27,022 nucleotides of DNA from a virus, in IMG/VR virus record IMGVR_UViG_3300044714_000006, positions 1 through 27,022 of that record. One strand, given 5' to 3'. Within the stretch, counting starts at the first letter, position 1. Each line of letters begins with the position of its first letter. The notes beneath the pieces were generated by a model, which was not told the DNA's origin, made no database searches, and was given only the letters and a program-made list of their open reading frames with translations. The position numbers and the translations under genes are program-made. Shown one piece after another: positions 1 to 18,296 of this stretch.

Positions 1-81
1 CTAAGCCTAAAGGCATGGGGGGGAGGGGGGGCTTGTGATTCCGGTTTCTGGTTTCTTTCAGGGTCAGTTCTAAGAGGCTTT

Positions 82-441
82 ATGTACCATGTGTATGTAG
101 TCAAGGATAAACGGCACGAATGCAAGGTCGGCATGACTAAGAATGTGCAGGCGCGCGTTAAACAGCTACAGACGGGCCACCCCATGAGCCTCAGTGTCGC
201 AAAGGTCTTTTCATTTGAGAGCAAGATGCAAGCTCTCCATATAGAGAAAAGTATCCACAAGATGTATCGGAATCATAAGATGAAAGGCGAGTGGTTCAAT
301 AAAAGCTGGTTCAAAGTATTTTGCGCGCAATTGGATAAATACGGCAGCATAGAAATTTTGACGCGGCAATATCATGTCCCTGGCATGAGTGAGCCCGGTA
401 AGAAATATGACCACGCGACCCGAAGAACTTACTTTGATTGA
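82..441 (+). CDS. GIY-YIG superfamily protein (T5orf172/MUG113 type)
   Basis: A 119-residue protein. Residues 3-34 hold a GIY-YIG-like core: a YVVK strand, the CKVGMTKN segment with the typical K-x-G-x-T, R25, then LQTGHP. A later helix has H53, E55 and H59, and residues 68-72 read KGEWF, as in T5orf172 proteins. Members of this family are small stand-alone phage nucleases or nuclease-like proteins that may cut host DNA or act in recombination; the substrate here is unknown. An AAGAGG ribosome site lies just upstream. It is the first gene of the rightward operon. The family call is good and the nuclease activity is inferred. Confidence 0.8.
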   Translation: MYHVYVVKDKRHECKVGMTKNVQARVKQLQTGHPMSLSVAKVFSFESKMQALHIEKSIHKMYRNHKMKGEWFNKSWFKVFCAQLDKYGSIEILTRQYHVPGMSEPGKKYDHATRRTYFD

Positions 442-482
442 TATGGATTCTGGATTGCCTCTTTCCTTGGAGACCTTCTTAA

Positions 483-926
483 GTGTTTAAACGATATTCA
501 GGCTTGCAAGTATTACAGCGTATTTCGCGGGAGCGATTTATCCACCCTCGAAATGTGCGCGAACTTGCGAAGGCGTGGAACATAGCCGAATTGCCGGAAG
601 GTGTTATAGAAGTTGGAATGTTGCATGGCAAAGCACCTATTTCCAAGGGAAGTGACCTATATACACAATTCGCTAAATACATGAGTTATAAATATGCGCC
701 CAATTTACTAGGAGGCGGATATAAGAGGCCGGTAAAGATAGCCACAAAAAGCTATTACAACGGTGGGCTCTGTATAGATTGCGGACGGCCAAGGTCTGTT
801 TCTGCTGGGAGGAAGTGTAAGGAATGTTCGCATAAGGATGCGATTGCAAGATATGAAGAGAAGTTTGTTGTGGATTCTGTTTTGATTCGTATTATTAACC
901 GAAGGAGTTTAAGCCATGAAGCATAA
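483..926 (+). CDS. Hypothetical protein with C-terminal zinc ribbon
   Basis: 147 residues, GTG start preceded by TTGGAG about 10 bases upstream. The N-terminal 85 residues are basic and mixed alpha/beta without a recognised domain. Residues 97-115 form a CxxC-x11-CxxC zinc knuckle (C97, C100, C112, C115), followed by a helical tail. Such zinc ribbons usually bind nucleic acid or hold a small fold together. The gene ends inside the next one (11-base overlap), so the two are probably cotranslated. Function not recognised. Confidence 0.7.
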   Translation: MFKRYSGLQVLQRISRERFIHPRNVRELAKAWNIAELPEGVIEVGMLHGKAPISKGSDLYTQFAKYMSYKYAPNLLGGGYKRPVKIATKSYYNGGLCIDCGRPRSVSAGRKCKECSHKDAIARYEEKFVVDSVLIRIINRRSLSHEA

Positions 927-1167
927 GATTTCTGATTTGCGCGACCATCTTTTCAATGCTCTTGAGAAGTTGGCTGATAAAGAAAACCCGATGGAAGTTG
1001 ACCGCGCCCAAGCGATTGCTCAGGTTGCATCCGTCATTGTGGATTCCGCTAAGGTGGAACTTACTTTGATGCGGACATTCAATCTGCGCGGAACTGGCTT
1101 TTTGCCAGAGGGTAAAAAGCGGAAGGCAATTCCTGTTTTGGGCGAAGAACACCGTTTTGATAATTGA
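916..1167 (+). CDS. Small helical phage protein (hypothetical)
   Basis: 83 residues, with a good AAGGAG-type site (GAAGGAG, 901-907) before the ATG. The N-terminus (ISDLRDHLFNALEKL) and the following segment with ENPMEVDRA and a VIVDSAKVE helix match a widespread small protein type seen in phages of Proteobacteria, recalled from memory, function unknown. It is predicted to be almost fully helical. The last 20 residues are basic and probably disordered. It precedes the structured gap at 1168-1323. Confidence 0.72.
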   Translation: MKHKISDLRDHLFNALEKLADKENPMEVDRAQAIAQVASVIVDSAKVELTLMRTFNLRGTGFLPEGKKRKAIPVLGEEHRFDN

Positions 1168-1168
1168 G

Positions 1169-1306
1169 GTTCGTAAGTGCTGTTGCTGGTCGAACGTCCT
1201 TAAAAAATGTTGCTCCGTACCGGCATTCTAGGAGTGGTAACGACCGCTAGAGACCTAGAGATAACCCGCCCTACTTAAAGGGGCGCTGGACCGCCGGTAA
1301 CCAGCA
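1169..1306 (+). ncRNA. Candidate structured RNA or 5' leader with pseudoknot potential
   Basis: This gap between two genes contains several perfect pairings that can coexist. Stem 1184-1190 with 1300-1306 has 7 bp. Stem 1218-1224 with 1293-1299 has 7 bp and is directly adjacent on the 3' side. A compound hairpin pairs 1227-1232 with 1254-1259 and 1233-1238 with 1243-1248 around an AACG loop, with one G-U pair. Another hairpin pairs 1267-1271 with 1281-1285. The 5' hairpin 1169-1173/1191-1195 would place 1184-1190 in its loop, so the outer stem would form a pseudoknot. The 3' edge lies 17 bases from the next start codon, so it may be a leader that controls the gene at 1324, or a separate small RNA. 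I do not recognise a known class. Confidence 0.5.
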
Positions 1307-1323
1307 CTAATTAAAGGTGAAAC

Positions 1324-1644
1324 ATGAAAGCTAATAAACAAGGATGCCCATCCTGCAAAGACGGTTGCGGCGGTATAGAAAACTACTATTACTGCCCTTG
1401 CTGCGTAGCGTTTGTTATGGATGGTGAGTATGTTTTAAATCCTATGGATGGCCGCACAAAGAAAGAAATAGAATTGCTTATTGAGCGGATAAAAAAACTA
1501 GAAGCAGAATATAAAGAAGCCCGCGAAATTATTAAGCCAGTTTTGCATGCAATCACTAATGAGCAACTTCACCGGGCGCAGGAGGATTTAATAGTATTTA
1601 TGGCGAACAAACCCATTAGCGCCATTGTGAGCGAACCAAAGTGA
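1324..1644 (+). CDS. Cys-rich zinc-binding-like coiled-coil protein
   Basis: 106 residues. The N-terminus has C8, C11, C15 and then C24, C26, C27, a likely zinc site. Residues 43-72 (KKEIELLIERIKKLEAEYKE region) form a strong coiled coil. An AAAGGTGA ribosome site precedes the ATG. The gene lies directly downstream of the proposed structured RNA and would be its regulatory target if that RNA is a leader. The end overlaps the next GTG start (GTGA). Function unknown. Confidence 0.7.
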   Translation: MKANKQGCPSCKDGCGGIENYYYCPCCVAFVMDGEYVLNPMDGRTKKEIELLIERIKKLEAEYKEAREIIKPVLHAITNEQLHRAQEDLIVFMANKPISAIVSEPK

Positions 1645-2009
1645 AACAAGACCTTCTCTACGAAGCCTGGGTAATGCTTGCCTATAACAACCCTAGGCCG
1701 GTCCTGACCTCTAGCGAGAGAGGCAGAATCAACCGTGGCCTTAAGGAGCTTCGTGAAATCGGAGCCACCCCGCAAGAGCTAAAGGCTAAATGGGGCGCGT
1801 ATAAAGCGAAGTGGGCCAAGCTAGGGAACCCGAGTATCACAGCCCTAACTGGGAACTGGAATACATTGGGAACGCGTATATCCACCCCGCAAGCCTCCAA
1901 GCGCCCAAGTTACCTTGATACCCCCTCCCCTACACCCGAAGGACTGAAACACGCTCAAGAGCTTTTACCACCCGCACTCAGGAAACGACTGGAAGCGAAG
2001 CACCAATGA
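1641..2009 (+). CDS. Hypothetical helical protein, possibly replication-related
   Basis: 122 residues, GTG start within GTGA overlapping the previous stop. Residues 25-70 contain a helical SERGRINRGLKELREIG segment followed by a WGAYKAKW motif and ITALTGNWN. This resembles the C-terminal helical domain found in phage replication initiator or helicase-loader-type proteins (a 'linear motif plus helical domain' ending in a W). The similarity is from memory and weak. The Pro/Ser-rich tail is likely flexible. There is no nucleotide-binding motif. Confidence 0.6.
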   Translation: MKQDLLYEAWVMLAYNNPRPVLTSSERGRINRGLKELREIGATPQELKAKWGAYKAKWAKLGNPSITALTGNWNTLGTRISTPQASKRPSYLDTPSPTPEGLKHAQELLPPALRKRLEAKHQ

Positions 2010-2046
2010 AACCTAACACCGCTCTTGAACGCAAGGACTTACGCTA

Positions 2047-2301
2047 ATGACCAAGATAAATGAAATGCTGGAAGCTGCTGGGAAGGTACCTGCTATTTCA
2101 AGTAATGCACGGCTTCATATGGAACTTGCTCATGCTGCCCATGAAGCAATCCCCGACATCAAGCGTATTGTGGAGTGGGTCAGAGAGGAAAAATGGATGC
2201 AGCATATTAACGGGTGCTATAAATATAACGAGGAAGGGGAAGGGAGACTTGAGGTTTGTACCTGTGGCTTATCCGAAATCCAATCTCTCATAAGGAGATA
2301 A
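2047..2301 (+). CDS. Hypothetical protein
   Basis: 84 residues; ATG within TAATG, where the TAA ends a 13-codon mini-frame (2006-2047) that links this gene to the previous one. The protein is helical with C57 and a CTCG motif near the C-terminus (LEVCTCGLSEIQ), perhaps a partial metal site with H54. A competing frame starting at 2060 has worse composition. The gene ends just before a TAAGGAG site for the next gene. No recognised family. Confidence 0.6.
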   Translation: MTKINEMLEAAGKVPAISSNARLHMELAHAAHEAIPDIKRIVEWVREEKWMQHINGCYKYNEEGEGRLEVCTCGLSEIQSLIRR

Positions 2302-2302
2302 C

Positions 2303-2467
2303 ATGAATTGGCGTGCTTTTCTATTTTATCAGGGTGGATTTCTTGTGGGAGAATGCATGGCTAGAACCAATAGCTTTTGGTGGCAGATGTTTTGGGCCGC
2401 CATTATTGGGTTCCCTTTATGGTGGTGGTCTGAACATGGAAAACCTAAAATCATGATAGGAGCCTAA
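2303..2467 (+). CDS. Small membrane protein (54 aa)
   Basis: 54 residues from an ATG preceded by a strong TAAGGAG site (2291-2297). The N-terminus is MNWRAFLFYQGGFLVGECMA. Residues 26-42 are very rich in Trp, Phe and Ile (FWWQMFWAAIIGFPLWWW) and would make one membrane segment; the tail is charged (SEHGKPK). It lies shortly upstream of a second small membrane protein and a lytic transglycosylase. A holin-like or spanin-like lysis role is possible but only inferred from size and position. Confidence 0.62.
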   Translation: MNWRAFLFYQGGFLVGECMARTNSFWWQMFWAAIIGFPLWWWSEHGKPKIMIGA

Positions 2468-2468
2468 G

Positions 2469-2813
2469 ATGCACCAGGAATCCTTCAACCTAGGGCCAAA
2501 GGCCAGTTTCGACATACGAACCCCTGCGAGCCATGCTAATGACCCCTCCACGTCCCATAGGGCAGAGGCCGATATGCGTTCTAGCGGTCTTATGGCTACC
2601 CATAACAAGACTATGGCGTGGTGGGTAAGCAGATTCCCAGGCCAGACCGCAAGCGAGTATTGGGCCATGATGGACGGTTTGAAGGGTTACGAGGAATGGG
2701 ATTTGCAGGAAGTCCGTCGCAGATTGACTACAATTAAAGATATTCACGCGGTACAGGGCGAAGCCAGGATGGGATTACGAAAGAAACCCGAAGTCACTTG
2801 GAGGCCGAAATGA
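2469..2813 (+). CDS. Winged-helix DNA-binding-like phage protein
   Basis: 114 residues. After a disordered start it has NDPSTSHRAEADMRSSG, a helix, then PGQTASEYW, an LQEVRRRLTTIKDI recognition-like helix and a basic wing ending GLRKKPEVTWRPK. This order (TSHxA motif, 'T..E' helix, R-R-L, basic wing, final W) is the usual pattern of short winged-helix proteins found in early phage operons. It probably binds DNA. Its stop overlaps the next start (ATGA). No ligand domain is present. Confidence 0.68.
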   Translation: MHQESFNLGPKASFDIRTPASHANDPSTSHRAEADMRSSGLMATHNKTMAWWVSRFPGQTASEYWAMMDGLKGYEEWDLQEVRRRLTTIKDIHAVQGEARMGLRKKPEVTWRPK

Positions 2814-2941
2814 ACACCTCGCATAACCTTGGATACGCTGAGATAGACCGCCGCGAAAAACTAGACTCTCTCAAAGAGCGCATCGGTAACGCTGCTTTGT
2901 GGCTGTTCCTGGGTATTTTAATCGGGCTGGCGTGTAGATGA
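2810..2941 (+). CDS. Small single-span membrane protein (43 aa)
   Basis: 43 residues. The N-terminal 25 residues are polar and charged (DRREKLDSLKERIGN). Residues 28-42 (AALWLFLGILIGLAC) form one clear transmembrane helix at the C-terminus. Both ends are coupled: the ATG overlaps the previous stop and the TGA overlaps the next ATG (ATGATA). Sitting directly upstream of a transglycosylase, it could be a pinholin-like or anchor protein; this is inferred from position. The tight overlap on both sides argues that it is a real gene. Confidence 0.6.
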   Translation: MNTSHNLGYAEIDRREKLDSLKERIGNAALWLFLGILIGLACR

Positions 2942-3369
2942 TAACCGCGCTGCTATTTTCAGCCGCGCTATCCACCACTCAAGTCTATTGGGCCGAAGAG
3001 GCTTTTAAGGTAGGTAATCCATATGGGCTCGGTCTTACCCTTTCGGCAATCATCGGCCAGGAATCTTCGTATTGTCAGAATAAAATCAACGGATGGAGTA
3101 GGGGGTGCAGTCAGATTAAGAGAGCCACGGCGAGAATATTTGACCCAGGTGTTACGCGCGAGGAACTCACACGAGATAATCAGCGAAACATTAAGGATGG
3201 GTTGGCGTTCCTATTGTACTGCCGAACCAATACAACCTCATGGCGGCGTTCGGTTGCTTGCTTCCATTGGGGACTTCCTCACGAAAGCCAAATGTCGGAT
3301 ACAGAAATCAACTCTGATGCGTATGTTTCTGCCGTGATAGCGCGACTACCGAAGGAAAGCCATGATTGA
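2938..3369 (+). CDS. Exported lytic transglycosylase-like endolysin
   Basis: 143 residues with a short hydrophobic N-terminus (MITALLFSAALSTT), a likely signal peptide or signal anchor. Residues 36-45 read SAIIGQESSY, where E42 matches the catalytic Glu of SLT-type transglycosylases. GCSQIKRATAR (56-66) matches the conserved 'G..QI...TA' motif, and a DNQRNIKDGLAFL helix and the W-x-x-x-x-A-C-F-x-W-G region follow as in that fold. It would cut the glycan strands of peptidoglycan in the periplasm. Position among early genes and next to small membrane proteins suggests a lysis role rather than a virion role. Confidence 0.78.
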   Translation: MITALLFSAALSTTQVYWAEEAFKVGNPYGLGLTLSAIIGQESSYCQNKINGWSRGCSQIKRATARIFDPGVTREELTRDNQRNIKDGLAFLLYCRTNTTSWRRSVACFHWGLPHESQMSDTEINSDAYVSAVIARLPKESHD

Positions 3370-3790
3370 GCATCCGATATTTGCGCGCATTTGCCGCAGT
3401 GGCGACCAAATTAGTAAGGCTTGGGAGTCTCTCGGGAATTTGCATTTAGACGGTGACGATTTGCCTGTAGAGATTATAGTACAACGATGGAAACCTAAGC
3501 GTACCGACCAGCAAAACAGATACCTTTGGGGTGTCGTTTATGCTATGATTGCACAGGAAACTGGGAACGATGTTAACGAGCTTCACGACTATTTTTTAGG
3601 CGAGTTTTTCGGGTGGGAGGAACGGGAAGTTTTGGGGCGAAAGAAACTCAGGCCCCGCGAACGCTCAAGCAAACAGGTTAAGGCGCGATTCTCAGAGTTT
3701 CTGGAATCAGTGATAAGCAAAGCCGCAACGCTAGGAATTGTGATTCCCCCGCCGAACCATGATTTACCTGATTCTCTCAAGGGCGAGTAA
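3362..3790 (+). CDS. NinB-like recombination protein
   Basis: 142 residues; ATG overlaps the previous gene by 8 bases after a GGAAAG site. The core KPKRTDQQNRYLWGVVYAMI is the hallmark 'Q-Q-N-R-x-x-W' helix of NinB/Orf-type and related phage recombination proteins; a later FSEFLESVISKAATLGI helix also fits. Lambda NinB (Orf) binds single-stranded DNA and helps RecA- or Red-dependent recombination. The nearby DUF1364 and RusA genes make a recombination and resolution cassette, as in lambdoid nin regions. The exact subfamily is uncertain. Confidence 0.68.
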   Translation: MIEHPIFARICRSGDQISKAWESLGNLHLDGDDLPVEIIVQRWKPKRTDQQNRYLWGVVYAMIAQETGNDVNELHDYFLGEFFGWEEREVLGRKKLRPRERSSKQVKARFSEFLESVISKAATLGIVIPPPNHDLPDSLKGE

Positions 3791-3804
3791 CCGGAGGCAG
3801 TAAT

Positions 3805-4197
3805 ATGAGTGGCGAACCTCCCAAATATTTCAATGACCATTATGGCCCAATGTGGTTTGTGCCGCTGGGTCCAGGTCCAAAGTCATGGGCGCAAATGGAA
3901 GAAGATGGCAGAAAGGCCGCAGCTAAAATGCTAGATAGAGTTTTAGAATATCGTAAACAACAGGAGAAAGTTATGGTCCGTGCAAAATTCAAGTTCACCG
4001 GCATTCAGACTGGTTATAGCGAACAGTCCCGCGAACTTACGTTTACTGCCCAGTATGACGAAACAATCCCCGAGGATAAGCGTTTTGCGAAAGCTACACC
4101 GAGCGGCACGTTCAAGATGACTTGCGACAATCCGGCGGCCAATGCTCAGTTTGAACTTGGCAAGCAATATTATTTCGACATTTCACCAGCTGACTAA
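3805..4197 (+). CDS. Two-part phage protein with internal start
   Basis: 130 residues read from an ATG with a GGAGG site upstream. The last 74 residues (from M57) are a compact beta-rich domain: RAKFKFTGI, then DKRFAKATPSGTFKM and a final DNPAANAQFELGKQYYFD. This is a common stand-alone phage protein whose function is unknown to me. An AGGAG site (3962-3966) lies at ideal spacing before the M57 codon at 3973, so a short 74-residue form is probably made as well or instead. The first 56 residues are Pro/Trp-rich followed by a helix and look like a separate unit fused in frame. Confidence 0.7.
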   Translation: MSGEPPKYFNDHYGPMWFVPLGPGPKSWAQMEEDGRKAAAKMLDRVLEYRKQQEKVMVRAKFKFTGIQTGYSEQSRELTFTAQYDETIPEDKRFAKATPSGTFKMTCDNPAANAQFELGKQYYFDISPAD

Positions 4198-4200
4198 GCG

Positions 4201-4575
4201 GTGAAAAAACAAACCACCCGGCAGGTAGAAGAATATCGCCCGATTATCCAAAAGTATTTCTATATCCGCAGTAAGAAGCTAATGGATAGCTCACGCGGCC
4301 AAGTGTGTACCTTAAACTTTCATGGGTGTAGCTATGGCACTGAAACTACAGTTTGTTGTCACGGGAACTACGACTTTATCGGTAAAGGTGCAGGCATTAA
4401 GGCAAGCGATATATATTCCGTTGATGGGTGTAGTTCGTGTCACTCCATTTTGGATGGACGTACTCCCAGCGAGTATACGGACGAAGACAAGCAATACTTC
4501 TTCTGGCGTGCTTTCGTGAAGACCACTAACCGCAGACTGGCCGATGGGATTATCAAGGTGGAGGGCGATAAATGA
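4201..4575 (+). CDS. DUF1364/YbcO-like putative nuclease
   Basis: 124 residues from a GTG start three bases after the previous stop. The order DSSRGQVCTLNFHGC, TETTVCCHGN, GAGIKASD, then DGCSSCHSILDGR matches the DUF1364 family of phage HNH-like nucleases (E. coli YbcO). Likely zinc or active-site residues are C36, C43, H54, C77, C80, H81 and D85. These proteins occur in phage recombination regions beside RusA, as here. The nuclease function is proposed for the family from structure, so activity remains inferred. The ribosome site is weak; coupling to the upstream gene is likely. Confidence 0.75.
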   Translation: MKKQTTRQVEEYRPIIQKYFYIRSKKLMDSSRGQVCTLNFHGCSYGTETTVCCHGNYDFIGKGAGIKASDIYSVDGCSSCHSILDGRTPSEYTDEDKQYFFWRAFVKTTNRRLADGIIKVEGDK

Positions 4576-4787
4576 AAATGGCTGAATACAAAGAACCCGA
4601 AGTAGACCCTGAAGTGTGTGAGCATTCATGGGTAGCCAATAGCGGGACCGGCGGCGAACCAAACTTTAAAATGAATAGGAATATGCATCCGTTTGAACCA
4701 TTGATGCATGTCCGTTGTCCAAAGTGCCACTCGCGGACTTGGTTTACTCCTACTCAGTGGAACGAAATGCCGGTAGGGAACGAATGA
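4572..4787 (+). CDS. Small Cys/His protein
   Basis: 71 residues, ATG in an ATGA overlap with the previous stop and a GGTGGAGGG site upstream. C16 and H18 near the N-terminus and C49, C52, H53 (VRCPKCHSRTW) could form one zinc site. It sits between the DUF1364 nuclease and the RusA resolvase and overlaps the latter by four bases. No family recognised. A start two codons later (second ATG) is possible. Confidence 0.62.
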   Translation: MKMAEYKEPEVDPEVCEHSWVANSGTGGEPNFKMNRNMHPFEPLMHVRCPKCHSRTWFTPTQWNEMPVGNE

Positions 4788-5113
4788 TATTTGTAACTCT
4801 CCCACTCAAGATTGAATCAGTAGCAAACAAACGTGAGCATTGGGCCGTTAGAGCCAAGCGAAGTAAAGCGCATCGCAAAGCTGCTATAATCATCCCTAAG
4901 TTCCCGTTGCCGTGTCAGGTTGTTTTGGTACGGATTGCCCCGCGCGAACTGGACACAGACAACCTACAAAGCGGATTCAAGGCTCTACGTGATGGCATCG
5001 CAGACCGTCTTGGGGTTAAAGACAATGACCCGCGCGTGGAATGGATATATGAACAGAAACGCGGCGCACCGCGCGAATACAAAGTAGATGTTTCTCTCTG
5101 GCCCATGCCGTAA
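4784..5113 (+). CDS. rusA: RusA-family Holliday junction resolvase
   Basis: 109 residues, ATG in ATGATA overlapping the previous stop, after a GTAGGGA site. The frame is open further upstream to 4715 but the protein begins naturally at MIFVTLPLKI. It has ELDTDNLQSGFKALRDGI (55-72), the D-x-D-N...K..D motif of RusA with D57 and D59, followed by GVKDNDPRVEW with a third acidic position (D80/D82). A basic N-terminal patch (NKREHWAVRAKRSK) fits DNA binding. RusA dimers cut four-way junctions; in phages this clears recombination and replication branches before packaging. Confidence 0.85.
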   Translation: MIFVTLPLKIESVANKREHWAVRAKRSKAHRKAAIIIPKFPLPCQVVLVRIAPRELDTDNLQSGFKALRDGIADRLGVKDNDPRVEWIYEQKRGAPREYKVDVSLWPMP

Positions 5114-6316: not shown

Positions 6317-6411
6317 GTGCTTTCTCCGGTTTAGGTTTATGGGCCTTTGCCCCTGCTCTGTGTACTATCCCTCACCAAAGCCCCCTGTTGCCAAGGGACG
6401 ATGGTCAAGGC

Positions 6412-6648: not shown

Positions 6649-6706
6649 TTTCCTTCTCCGCCCCTGACTGGCCGAGGCGCGCCGTGAATCGCTCTATCTG
6701 GGATTA

Positions 6707-6735
6707 AGCATAGCAAATACTATTTCACTATGCAA
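6707..6735 (-). promoter_or_regulatory. Leftward sigma70-like promoter
   Basis: On the minus strand TTGCAT (6730-6735) and TATGCT (6707-6712) are separated by exactly 17 bases. The first leftward gene starts about 55 bases downstream with a good ribosome site. Matches are 4/6 and 4/6 to consensus. Confidence 0.6.
6708..6733. promoter_or_regulatory. Dyad operator candidate over the leftward promoter
   Basis: GCATAG (6708-6713) and CTATGC (6728-6733) form a perfect inverted repeat with a 14-base spacer, and AAATA-C-TATTT (6715-6725) adds an inner dyad around nearly the same centre. The two arms lie on the -10 and -35 boxes, so a bound dimer would block leftward transcription. The binding protein is unknown; the Fis-like product of the gene at 6793 is a candidate. 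Confidence 0.5.
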
Positions 6736-6757
6736 GCCCCATAGGAGAAATATTTTC

Positions 6758-6786
6758 TTGACTTCCCCGGAACCCTGATATAGACT
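6758..6786 (+). promoter_or_regulatory. Rightward promoter giving a leaderless mRNA
   Basis: TTGACT (6758-6763) and TAGACT (6781-6786) are spaced by 17 bases. Expected transcription start is about 6793, the A of the ATG of the next gene. No Shine-Dalgarno sequence precedes that ATG, so the transcript would be leaderless. Confidence 0.6.
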
Positions 6787-6792
6787 CGTTTA

Positions 6793-7218: not shown

Positions 7219-7926
7219 ATGACTGAATATCAGATACAGCAATCCCGCCTAGAGCGTCTTATGGGCGCTAACTTCCATCTTAGGGAAGGTAAGGGTAAGG
7301 GAATTAACGGCGGTGTAGATGCTTGCCTCCTCCAATCCGTGCATTGGTTAACCGGGGGAGACGGTTCAAGCGACCACCCGGCATGCACTTCCCCGCTCTT
7401 GGCTGGATACTGCATCCGGCTGAATGATTCCAAGCTCTTTAGAGAGCATCGGGATATGCTTAAGCCTTTCGCGCCTAAGCTTGTGGGAACTGTTGCCTCT
7501 ATTGAAGTAGAGAAACAGCGCTCCTATATCGCGGCGGATTATGCCGTGCGAGTGTTTGCTCCTAAGTGGATGCGGATTCTTGGCAATGTGGAATGGGCTG
7601 AAAAGCTCGAAGCTTGCTCTCCCATAGTGGATAGGGAGATAGCAAGTGCGGCGCAAAAGGTAGCGGCGGAAGTTAGAAAAGCCGCCGCCGCCAACGCCGC
7701 CTCCGCCGCCGACGCCGCCAACGCCGCCTACGCCCACGCCTCCGCCGACGCCGCCGCCGCCGCCGACGCCGCCGCCTACGCCGCCGCCGCCGCCAACGCC
7801 GCCTCCGCCTCCGCCGCCTCCGCCGCCGACGCCTACGCCGACGCCTACAAGAAAGCTCTCCCCGAAGACCTCCAATATCTCAGAGAGAAAGCTCTAGAGT
7901 GTTTGGACAAGATGATTAGTGTTTAG
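7219..7926 (+). CDS. Protein with C-terminal Ala-rich repeat tract
   Basis: 235 residues, CAGGGAG site upstream. Residues 1-150 are an ordinary mixed alpha/beta domain (LMGANFHLREGKGKGINGG, then CLLQSVHWLTGG) without a family I know. Residues 155-210 consist almost only of Ala with Asp, Asn, Ser, Tyr and His in an A-A-x-A rhythm, which would form a long helix or coiled-coil rod. A short helical cap (EDLQYLREKALECLDKM) follows. Ala/Tyr/Asp-rich rods of this kind occur in other phage proteins of unknown role. The tract is built only of NNC codons, unlike the rest of the gene. Confidence 0.66.
   Translation: MTEYQIQQSRLERLMGANFHLREGKGKGINGGVDACLLQSVHWLTGGDGSSDHPACTSPLLAGYCIRLNDSKLFREHRDMLKPFAPKLVGTVASIEVEKQRSYIAADYAVRVFAPKWMRILGNVEWAEKLEACSPIVDREIASAAQKVAAEVRKAAAANAASAADAANAAYAHASADAAAAADAAAYAAAAANAASASAASAADAYADAYKKALPEDLQYLREKALECLDKMISV
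7681..7848 (+). repeat. NNC triplet tract coding Ala-rich rod
   Basis: 168 bases in which nearly every codon is GCC, TCC, GAC, AAC, TAC or CAC. It is a degenerate trinucleotide repeat prone to slippage, so the protein length may vary between relatives in steps of three bases. Confidence 0.75.
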
Positions 7927-8112: not shown

Positions 8113-8121
8113 GAGATAGAT

Positions 8122-8262
8122 ATGGCGCATATAGAAGTTGACCCGTGCCAGTTATGTGAGGCTATCTTTGATGCTTTACGCAGAGAATGCATCTTACAAT
8201 TGCAATGCATCTTATTGGAGCTAGTGTCTGTTTGCTACTTTCCATGTTTTCATGGTGGGTAA
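8122..8262 (+). CDS. Small Cys-rich protein (46 aa)
   Basis: 46 residues, ATG preceded by TAGGAGATAG. Six cysteines (C9, C12, C23, C29, C38, C42) and a hydrophobic second half (CILLELVSVCYFPCF). It overlaps, in another frame, a 27-residue membrane-peptide frame (8187-8270). Because this one has the strong ribosome site and the other has the better membrane segment and coupling, both may be made. Confidence 0.45.
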   Translation: MAHIEVDPCQLCEAIFDALRRECILQLQCILLELVSVCYFPCFHGG

Positions 8263-8270
8263 ATGAATGA
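8187..8270 (+). CDS. Possible 27-aa membrane peptide in overlapping frame
   Basis: 27 residues: a start MHLTIAMHL and one hydrophobic stretch (IGASVCLLLSMFSWW) long enough to span a membrane. The stop TGA overlaps the ATG of the next gene (8267), as in most gene pairs of this phage. There is no good ribosome site. Listed as possible only. Confidence 0.3.
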   Translation: MHLTIAMHLIGASVCLLLSMFSWWVNE

Positions 8271-11456: not shown

Positions 11457-11770
11457 AGGCCCAGAGTATTTCCCCCGCCCCCGGTGGCGGTAAAGTCCGT
11501 TCAGCGCGTTCCGGCAGCGAACCCCGTATCGGTGCGACTGTAGAAAAACCAGTCCAGCGTACCGTGCATCCGTTTAATCCTAATCCATTCAAAGCCTCCG
11601 GTTCGCAGGAATCTGCGGATGTAGGTGCCACGAATACCGGCGATACCGGCCCGTCAATCAAGACAGGCAAAGTAAACCGCACTTACAAAGACGTGCAGGG
11701 TGCCGATGGTGAACTCGGACGTAAATTCGGTGATGCAGGTAAAGGCTCTAACGTCAATCCCAAGCGTTGA
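11453..11770 (+). CDS. Disordered basic Gly/Pro-rich protein
   Basis: 105 residues, ATG after CCAGGAGT. It is low in hydrophobics and rich in Gly, Pro, Ser, Asn and charged residues (RSARSGSEPRIG, then GATNTGDTGPSI), so it is probably disordered. It sits at the start of the assembly module. Many phages carry a protein like this near portal and scaffold genes; no function can be read. The end overlaps a TTG start (TTGA). Confidence 0.6.
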   Translation: MKAQSISPAPGGGKVRSARSGSEPRIGATVEKPVQRTVHPFNPNPFKASGSQESADVGATNTGDTGPSIKTGKVNRTYKDVQGADGELGRKFGDAGKGSNVNPKR

Positions 11771-11982
11771 GCGGTATCTGTAGATTCTCCCGTAAGACCC
11801 AATTAAGGGTTTTACGAGAAGGGCATGAGAGCTATCGGTTCAATGGACCGAATATCCCATGTCCCTATGGCGGGGATGAACGGAATGGAATATGGGCGCA
11901 AGGCAGGAAACTAGCCAAGGATCATATTAGTTTAAACAGAGCTAAAGCAATCTTTGAACGTCAGGAGGATAGATTCTCTTGA
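11767..11982 (+). CDS. Rmf/CrpP-like small protein
   Basis: 71 residues from a TTG start overlapping the previous stop. The middle region reads LREGHESYRFNG, then PCPYGGDERNGIWAQGRKLA, which matches the 'G..Ay..G....CPY.....R..W..G' signature of the Rmf/CrpP superfamily (ribosome modulation factor and relatives) that are common in phages. Known members bind ribosomes or modify drugs; the phage members' role is unknown. Confidence in the family is moderate because the sequence is short. Confidence 0.6.
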   Translation: MSGICRFSRKTQLRVLREGHESYRFNGPNIPCPYGGDERNGIWAQGRKLAKDHISLNRAKAIFERQEDRFS

Positions 11983-18148: not shown

Positions 18149-18173
18149 ACCCCATTTAGATTTAGTCTATATT
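18145..18173 (+). promoter_or_regulatory. Candidate promoter for the capsid gene
   Basis: TTGAAC (18145-18150) and TATATT (18168-18173) with a 17-base spacer. Predicted start near 18180, leaving a leader of about 115 bases before the capsid ATG. A GGGGT/ACCCC hairpin (18141-18153, loop TGA, the scaffold stop) lies on the -35. Confidence 0.5.
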
Positions 18174-18179
18174 TGGCAT

Positions 18180-18296
18180 AACCCAGCTATGGGGCAAATA
18201 GCACCTCGGTCTCCCTTCCGTTAAAGGGCTGTTCGGCTTCTCGTCGTTAATGAGTAACCGCCTTCGGGCATTTATTTATTAACAGGAGACGCCACA
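18180..18296 (+). promoter_or_regulatory. Capsid mRNA leader with small hairpins
   Basis: No gene. Contains hairpins CCCA/TGGG (18182-18185/18190-18193), CCCTT/AAGGG (18213-18217/18224-18228) and GCC-TTCG-GGC (18260-18269, a stable UUCG loop) followed by an A/T-rich stretch. The AGGAG site is 18284-18288, spaced well before the ATG at 18297. Together they may stabilise the capsid message. Confidence 0.4.

Follow-up and report, generated by a model that had tools for sequence, protein, structure and literature searches.

The window analyzed here, positions 1-27,022 of IMGVR_UViG_3300044714_000006, is an entire viral contig of 27,022 bases. Its predicted terminase, portal, major head protein, NinB/Orf-like and RusA-like genes are those of a tailed phage whose head module is podovirus-like. 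In the portal, identity to Rhizobium, Paracoccus and Microcystis phages is about 35%, and the best IMG/VR relative of the terminase stands at 53% identity; with terminase relatives at only ~53%, no close relative was found. Near the left end, 82-441 encodes a small T5orf172/MUG113-domain protein (GIY-YIG superfamily nuclease-like). The gene at 1641-2009 carries an exact 12-base direct repeat, CCACCCCGCAAG, at 1765-1776 and 1882-1893, and the protein encoded at 7219-7926 is low in complexity and rich in Ala over a long stretch (ADAAAAADAAAYAAAAANAA...). The subject of this report is the gap between two small genes of the left operon, which has the following features:

916 to 1167, + strand: upstream small gene of 83 aa, phrog_2044 family
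1168 to 1323, + strand: intergenic gap of 156 nt with excess RNA folding in shuffle tests
1313 to 1320, + strand: AAAGGTGA, ribosome-binding site (Shine-Dalgarno) serving the gene at 1324; largely unpaired by prediction
1324 to 1644, + strand: downstream Cys-rich small gene of 106 aa

The genes flanking the gap are all on the + strand with otherwise little spacing between them, and the gap is the largest of the left operon. The first-pass annotation had described intergenic space as nearly absent, which is true of the left operon (1-5100) but not of the whole window, where the ORF list leaves comparably large gaps at 6649-6792, 8113-8266 and 18149-18296. Short ORFs of 23-28 aa inside the gap are without support. 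For the downstream gene, a single-sequence search of IMG/VR and phages returned no relatives, and no known family passes its cut-off.

As + strand RNA, the whole gap has an MFE of -52.6 kcal/mol. This fold energy, which the first-pass annotation had left to be compared with shuffled controls, does differ from them: three tests, which took essentially one identical stretch, gave whole-gap z-scores of -2.28 (4/200 shuffles), -2.66 (6/400) and -3.32 (1/150). When the stretch was trimmed to 1176-1308, tight ends that were picked using the fold itself, the + strand z was -3.68 (about -3.7; 0/200 shuffles) and that of the - strand about -0.7. As a correction for the fold-chosen ends, the best 133-nt sub-window inside the gap was taken, and its energy was matched by 1/400 shuffled gaps. 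Perfect Watson-Crick stems of at least 7 bp were also in excess, with 3 observed versus 0.47 expected (4/400 shuffles). The minus strand was ordinary (z -0.66 to -1.0; whole gap about -1), indicating that the signal belongs to + strand RNA. We conclude that the + strand folding excess is real but modest. It is strand-specific and lies between co-directional genes, as is looked for in a structured intercistronic mRNA element. A DNA element is less likely, since the RNA-fold excess is confined to the + strand; the DNA fold itself gave a z of -2.66.

Among seven larger gaps compared, the only + strand outliers were 1168-1323 and the capsid leader at 18149-18296. The latter, 148 nt long and preceding the major capsid gene, has a z of -4.0 to -4.5, which beats the gap studied here, and forms a long hairpin immediately ahead of the start codon. 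In a genome-wide z-scan of one strand at a 150-nt step, some other stretches of the window matched or surpassed the gap in folding, and one of these lies in predicted coding sequence. A strong local fold (z -4.96) was seen at 11720-11870, close to where two small ORFs overlap, and includes a perfect 10-bp hairpin, CGTAAGACCC-AATTAA-GGGTTTTACG. The gap at 6317-6411, between minus-strand ORFs, gave a z of -2.79 on the minus strand, which is the coding strand of its neighbors (2/150 shuffles).

Relatives of the gap were sought in several ways. Distant blastn against phages and plasmids found no relative, with one run yielding only ~22-26-base matches at E about 7, and an exact 21-mer from the gap was not found in IMG/VR. 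Gapped stem patterns matched in viral and genome collections at a level that we read as chance, the best having an E of 0.26 under a covariance model. That model was built on one sequence (1207-1311) and would miss diverged relatives; as a positive control, it recovered the window. A covariance-model search, suggested in the first-pass annotation as a source of compensatory base changes, found no supported relative among 49 related records. It likewise gave no supported match in about 750 genomes of two bacterial classes, and in its run over 81 sources around the upstream gene, covering eighty loci where that gene has relatives, the sole match of the 1207-1311 model was the window itself. When the junctions at these loci were read off with a simple next-ORF rule, most were short or overlapping, and the longer gaps among those listed hold unrelated AT-rich or coding-looking sequence. 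One covariance-model match (28 bits, E 5.7e-5, in 1/369 genomes) was rejected as chance, lying inside a 785-aa coding sequence that, judging from its sequence, we take to be FeoB-like.

The main rival to a functional element is that a GC-richer gap folds well by chance and its structure was not selected. The whole-gap z of just -2.3 to -3.3, equaled by ~2% of shuffles in one test, would fit such an origin, as would the fact that the gap was singled out from a whole window in which other stretches fold as well or better, and that a homologue was not found in the collections searched. Chance does not readily account for the strand asymmetry of the excess, for a best sub-window and a perfect 7-bp stem excess reached by so few shuffles (1/400 and 4/400), or for the retention of 156 non-coding bases despite a compact operon. 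We consider chance folding somewhat unlikely.

The architecture of the gap was examined through its individual stems, which are as follows:

1176 to 1182, + strand: 5′ arm of the closing stem, AGUGCUG, pairing with 1302-1308 and continuing as 1183-1189 with 1294-1300 (MFE fold)
1302 to 1308, + strand: 3′ arm of the closing stem, CAGCACU, sharing bases with the stretch to which the competing 7-mer 1184-1190 would pair
1184 to 1190, + strand: 5′ arm of the outer stem, UGCUGGU, partner 1300-1306; true complementarity, probability about 0
1218 to 1224, + strand: 5′ arm of the inner (abutting) stem, UACCGGC, partner 1293-1299; minority state, about 20%
1169 to 1195, + strand: alternative 5′ hairpin GUUCG/CGAAC, 0.19 of the ensemble; pseudoknot possible with either outer 7-mer
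1227 to 1259, + strand: 12-bp hairpin capped by an AACG loop and interrupted by a 5-nt bulge; nearly certain to form in the predicted ensemble
1267 to 1285, + strand: GC-rich hairpin of 5-6 bp, seen in the alternative folds examined

Every stem of the first-pass annotation is present where it was placed and with the letters claimed: GTTCG (1169-1173) with CGAAC (1191-1195), TGCTGGT (1184-1190) with ACCAGCA (1300-1306), TACCGGC (1218-1224) with GCCGGTA (1293-1299), CGCCC with GGGCG in 1267-1285, and the hairpin at 1227-1259, whose 12 bp are split 6+6 by the 5-base bulge. Their combination into one structure is not supported, with two 7-mers competing for one 3′ strand. AGUGCUG (1176-1182) and UGCUGGU (1184-1190) are perfect complements to overlapping parts of ACCAGCACU (1300-1308), and the outer stem has near-zero probability because its neighbor at 1176-1182 competes for its 3′ strand. 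In the MFE fold, the closing helix joins 1176-1189 to 1294-1308; since this fold uses 1176-1182 and the extension 1183-1189/1294-1300, both the outer and the inner stems are excluded from it. Combining the 5′ hairpin with the inner stem gives -50.8 (1.8 kcal/mol above the MFE), and the nested outer and inner stems first proposed reach -45.3, which is 7.3 above it. Among the alternatives examined, only the hairpins at 1227-1259 and 1267-1285 persist. A pseudoknot with the 5′ hairpin is possible, as had been proposed, but is not energetically preferred, on folding tools that give pseudoknots no score. We conclude that the architecture initially proposed is not the thermodynamically preferred one under the folding model. 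As a caution, compatible perfect stems listed by eye can describe a structure with a thermodynamic probability near zero.

The gap lies immediately upstream of the Cys-rich gene at 1324 and might be its regulatory leader, a riboswitch or protein-binding RNA that would toggle between competing folds. The two mutually exclusive 7-bp stems on one 3′ strand and the alternative folds no more than 2 kcal/mol apart would fit such a leader. However, the ribosome-binding site was paired in none of the folds examined: the unpaired probability of 1313-1320 was 0.8-0.9 locally and 0.57-0.97 in a 320 nt context, and the structure ended at or before 1308. Neither a sequestered ribosome-binding site nor a terminator, either of which could serve as a riboswitch expression platform, was present in local or extended folds, and no promoter-like or terminator-like site was found within the gap. 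An open ribosome-binding site speaks against a riboswitch-type switch, as does the lack of a terminator or promoter. Moreover, cmscan found no Rfam family at thresholds or at E ≤ 10 and no known aptamer family at E ≤ 10, and for the gene to be regulated no known family scores above cut-off. The first-pass suggestion of a riboswitch-like leader is thus not supported, and we regard a regulatory leader of any kind as distinctly unlikely.

An independent small RNA encoded by the gap could explain a compact closed fold with defined ends, but with no promoter-like or terminator-like site there is no sign of a separate transcript, and we judge it very unlikely. Comparably improbable, if anything a shade more so, is a lineage-specific regulatory or catalytic phage RNA of an undescribed class, in which the competing 7-bp stems and the 5′-hairpin pseudoknot would act as a switch or catalytic scaffold. 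A self-cleaving ribozyme of unknown class, also raised at first, is the most improbable of all and has no positive evidence beyond a multi-branched fold and a possible pseudoknot: Rfam is empty at E ≤ 10, the twister, twister-sister, hatchet and pistol covariance models gave no match, the hammerhead core CUGANGA is absent between 1050 and 1420, an HDV-like descriptor gave four weak + strand matches, none with all stems inside the gap and no commoner than in shuffles (0-18), and no relatives were found that would define a conserved core. The gap resembles the HDV-like theta ribozymes of phages in being a phage-encoded compact RNA with a possible pseudoknot (PMC10879173). Unlike those ribozymes, it has no tRNA in its window (ARAGORN, no tRNA or tmRNA match) and no nested double pseudoknot above chance level, and none with an active-site C in J4/2 was found.

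We suggest that the gap is probably a genuine yet ordinary structured intercistronic RNA. More specifically, the reading that we tentatively favor is that the gap acts in cis, as a structured spacer of a polycistronic mRNA of the phage. Several observations favor this reading: the folding excess is restricted to the + strand, the closing stem survives the addition of 60-100 nt of flanking mRNA while the ribosome-binding site stays mostly unpaired, and the gap holds no promoter or terminator and sits among + strand neighbors with scant other spacing. Because the capsid gene leader is likewise over-folded, structured leaders are not unique to 1168-1323. On the other side, no homologue was found, the z is moderate once windows are compared fairly, a classic RNase III site would be expected to have longer and more regular helices, and other stretches of the window equal or exceed its folding, including one within predicted coding sequence.

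Phage mRNAs carry structured intercistronic processing and stability elements, among them the RNase III sites found in T7-like phages, and processing, decay protection and insulation are general roles of such structures. In the spacer proposed here, the + strand gap is calculated to fold into a compact branched structure from ~1176 to 1308, just ahead of an open ribosome-binding site, and this fold would shield or mark the message between two cistrons. It may thereby serve as an RNase-processing element, block decay, or insulate the downstream start site so that this stays accessible. By analogy, it would resemble the T7-like RNase III sites in being a folded stretch that separates two cistrons of an operon on one strand and is placed just before an open ribosome-binding site. 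Those sites form one long duplex, whereas the predicted gap fold is branched with short, irregular helices.

Published surveys accept candidate structured RNAs on covariation across homologues (PMC8040213). Like those candidates, some of which lie near phage genes, the gap is intergenic and structured; unlike them, it is one for which no homologue was found, and without homologues its fold settles no open question. If functional, it would be one more orphan structured intergenic RNA, from a little-sampled podovirus group.
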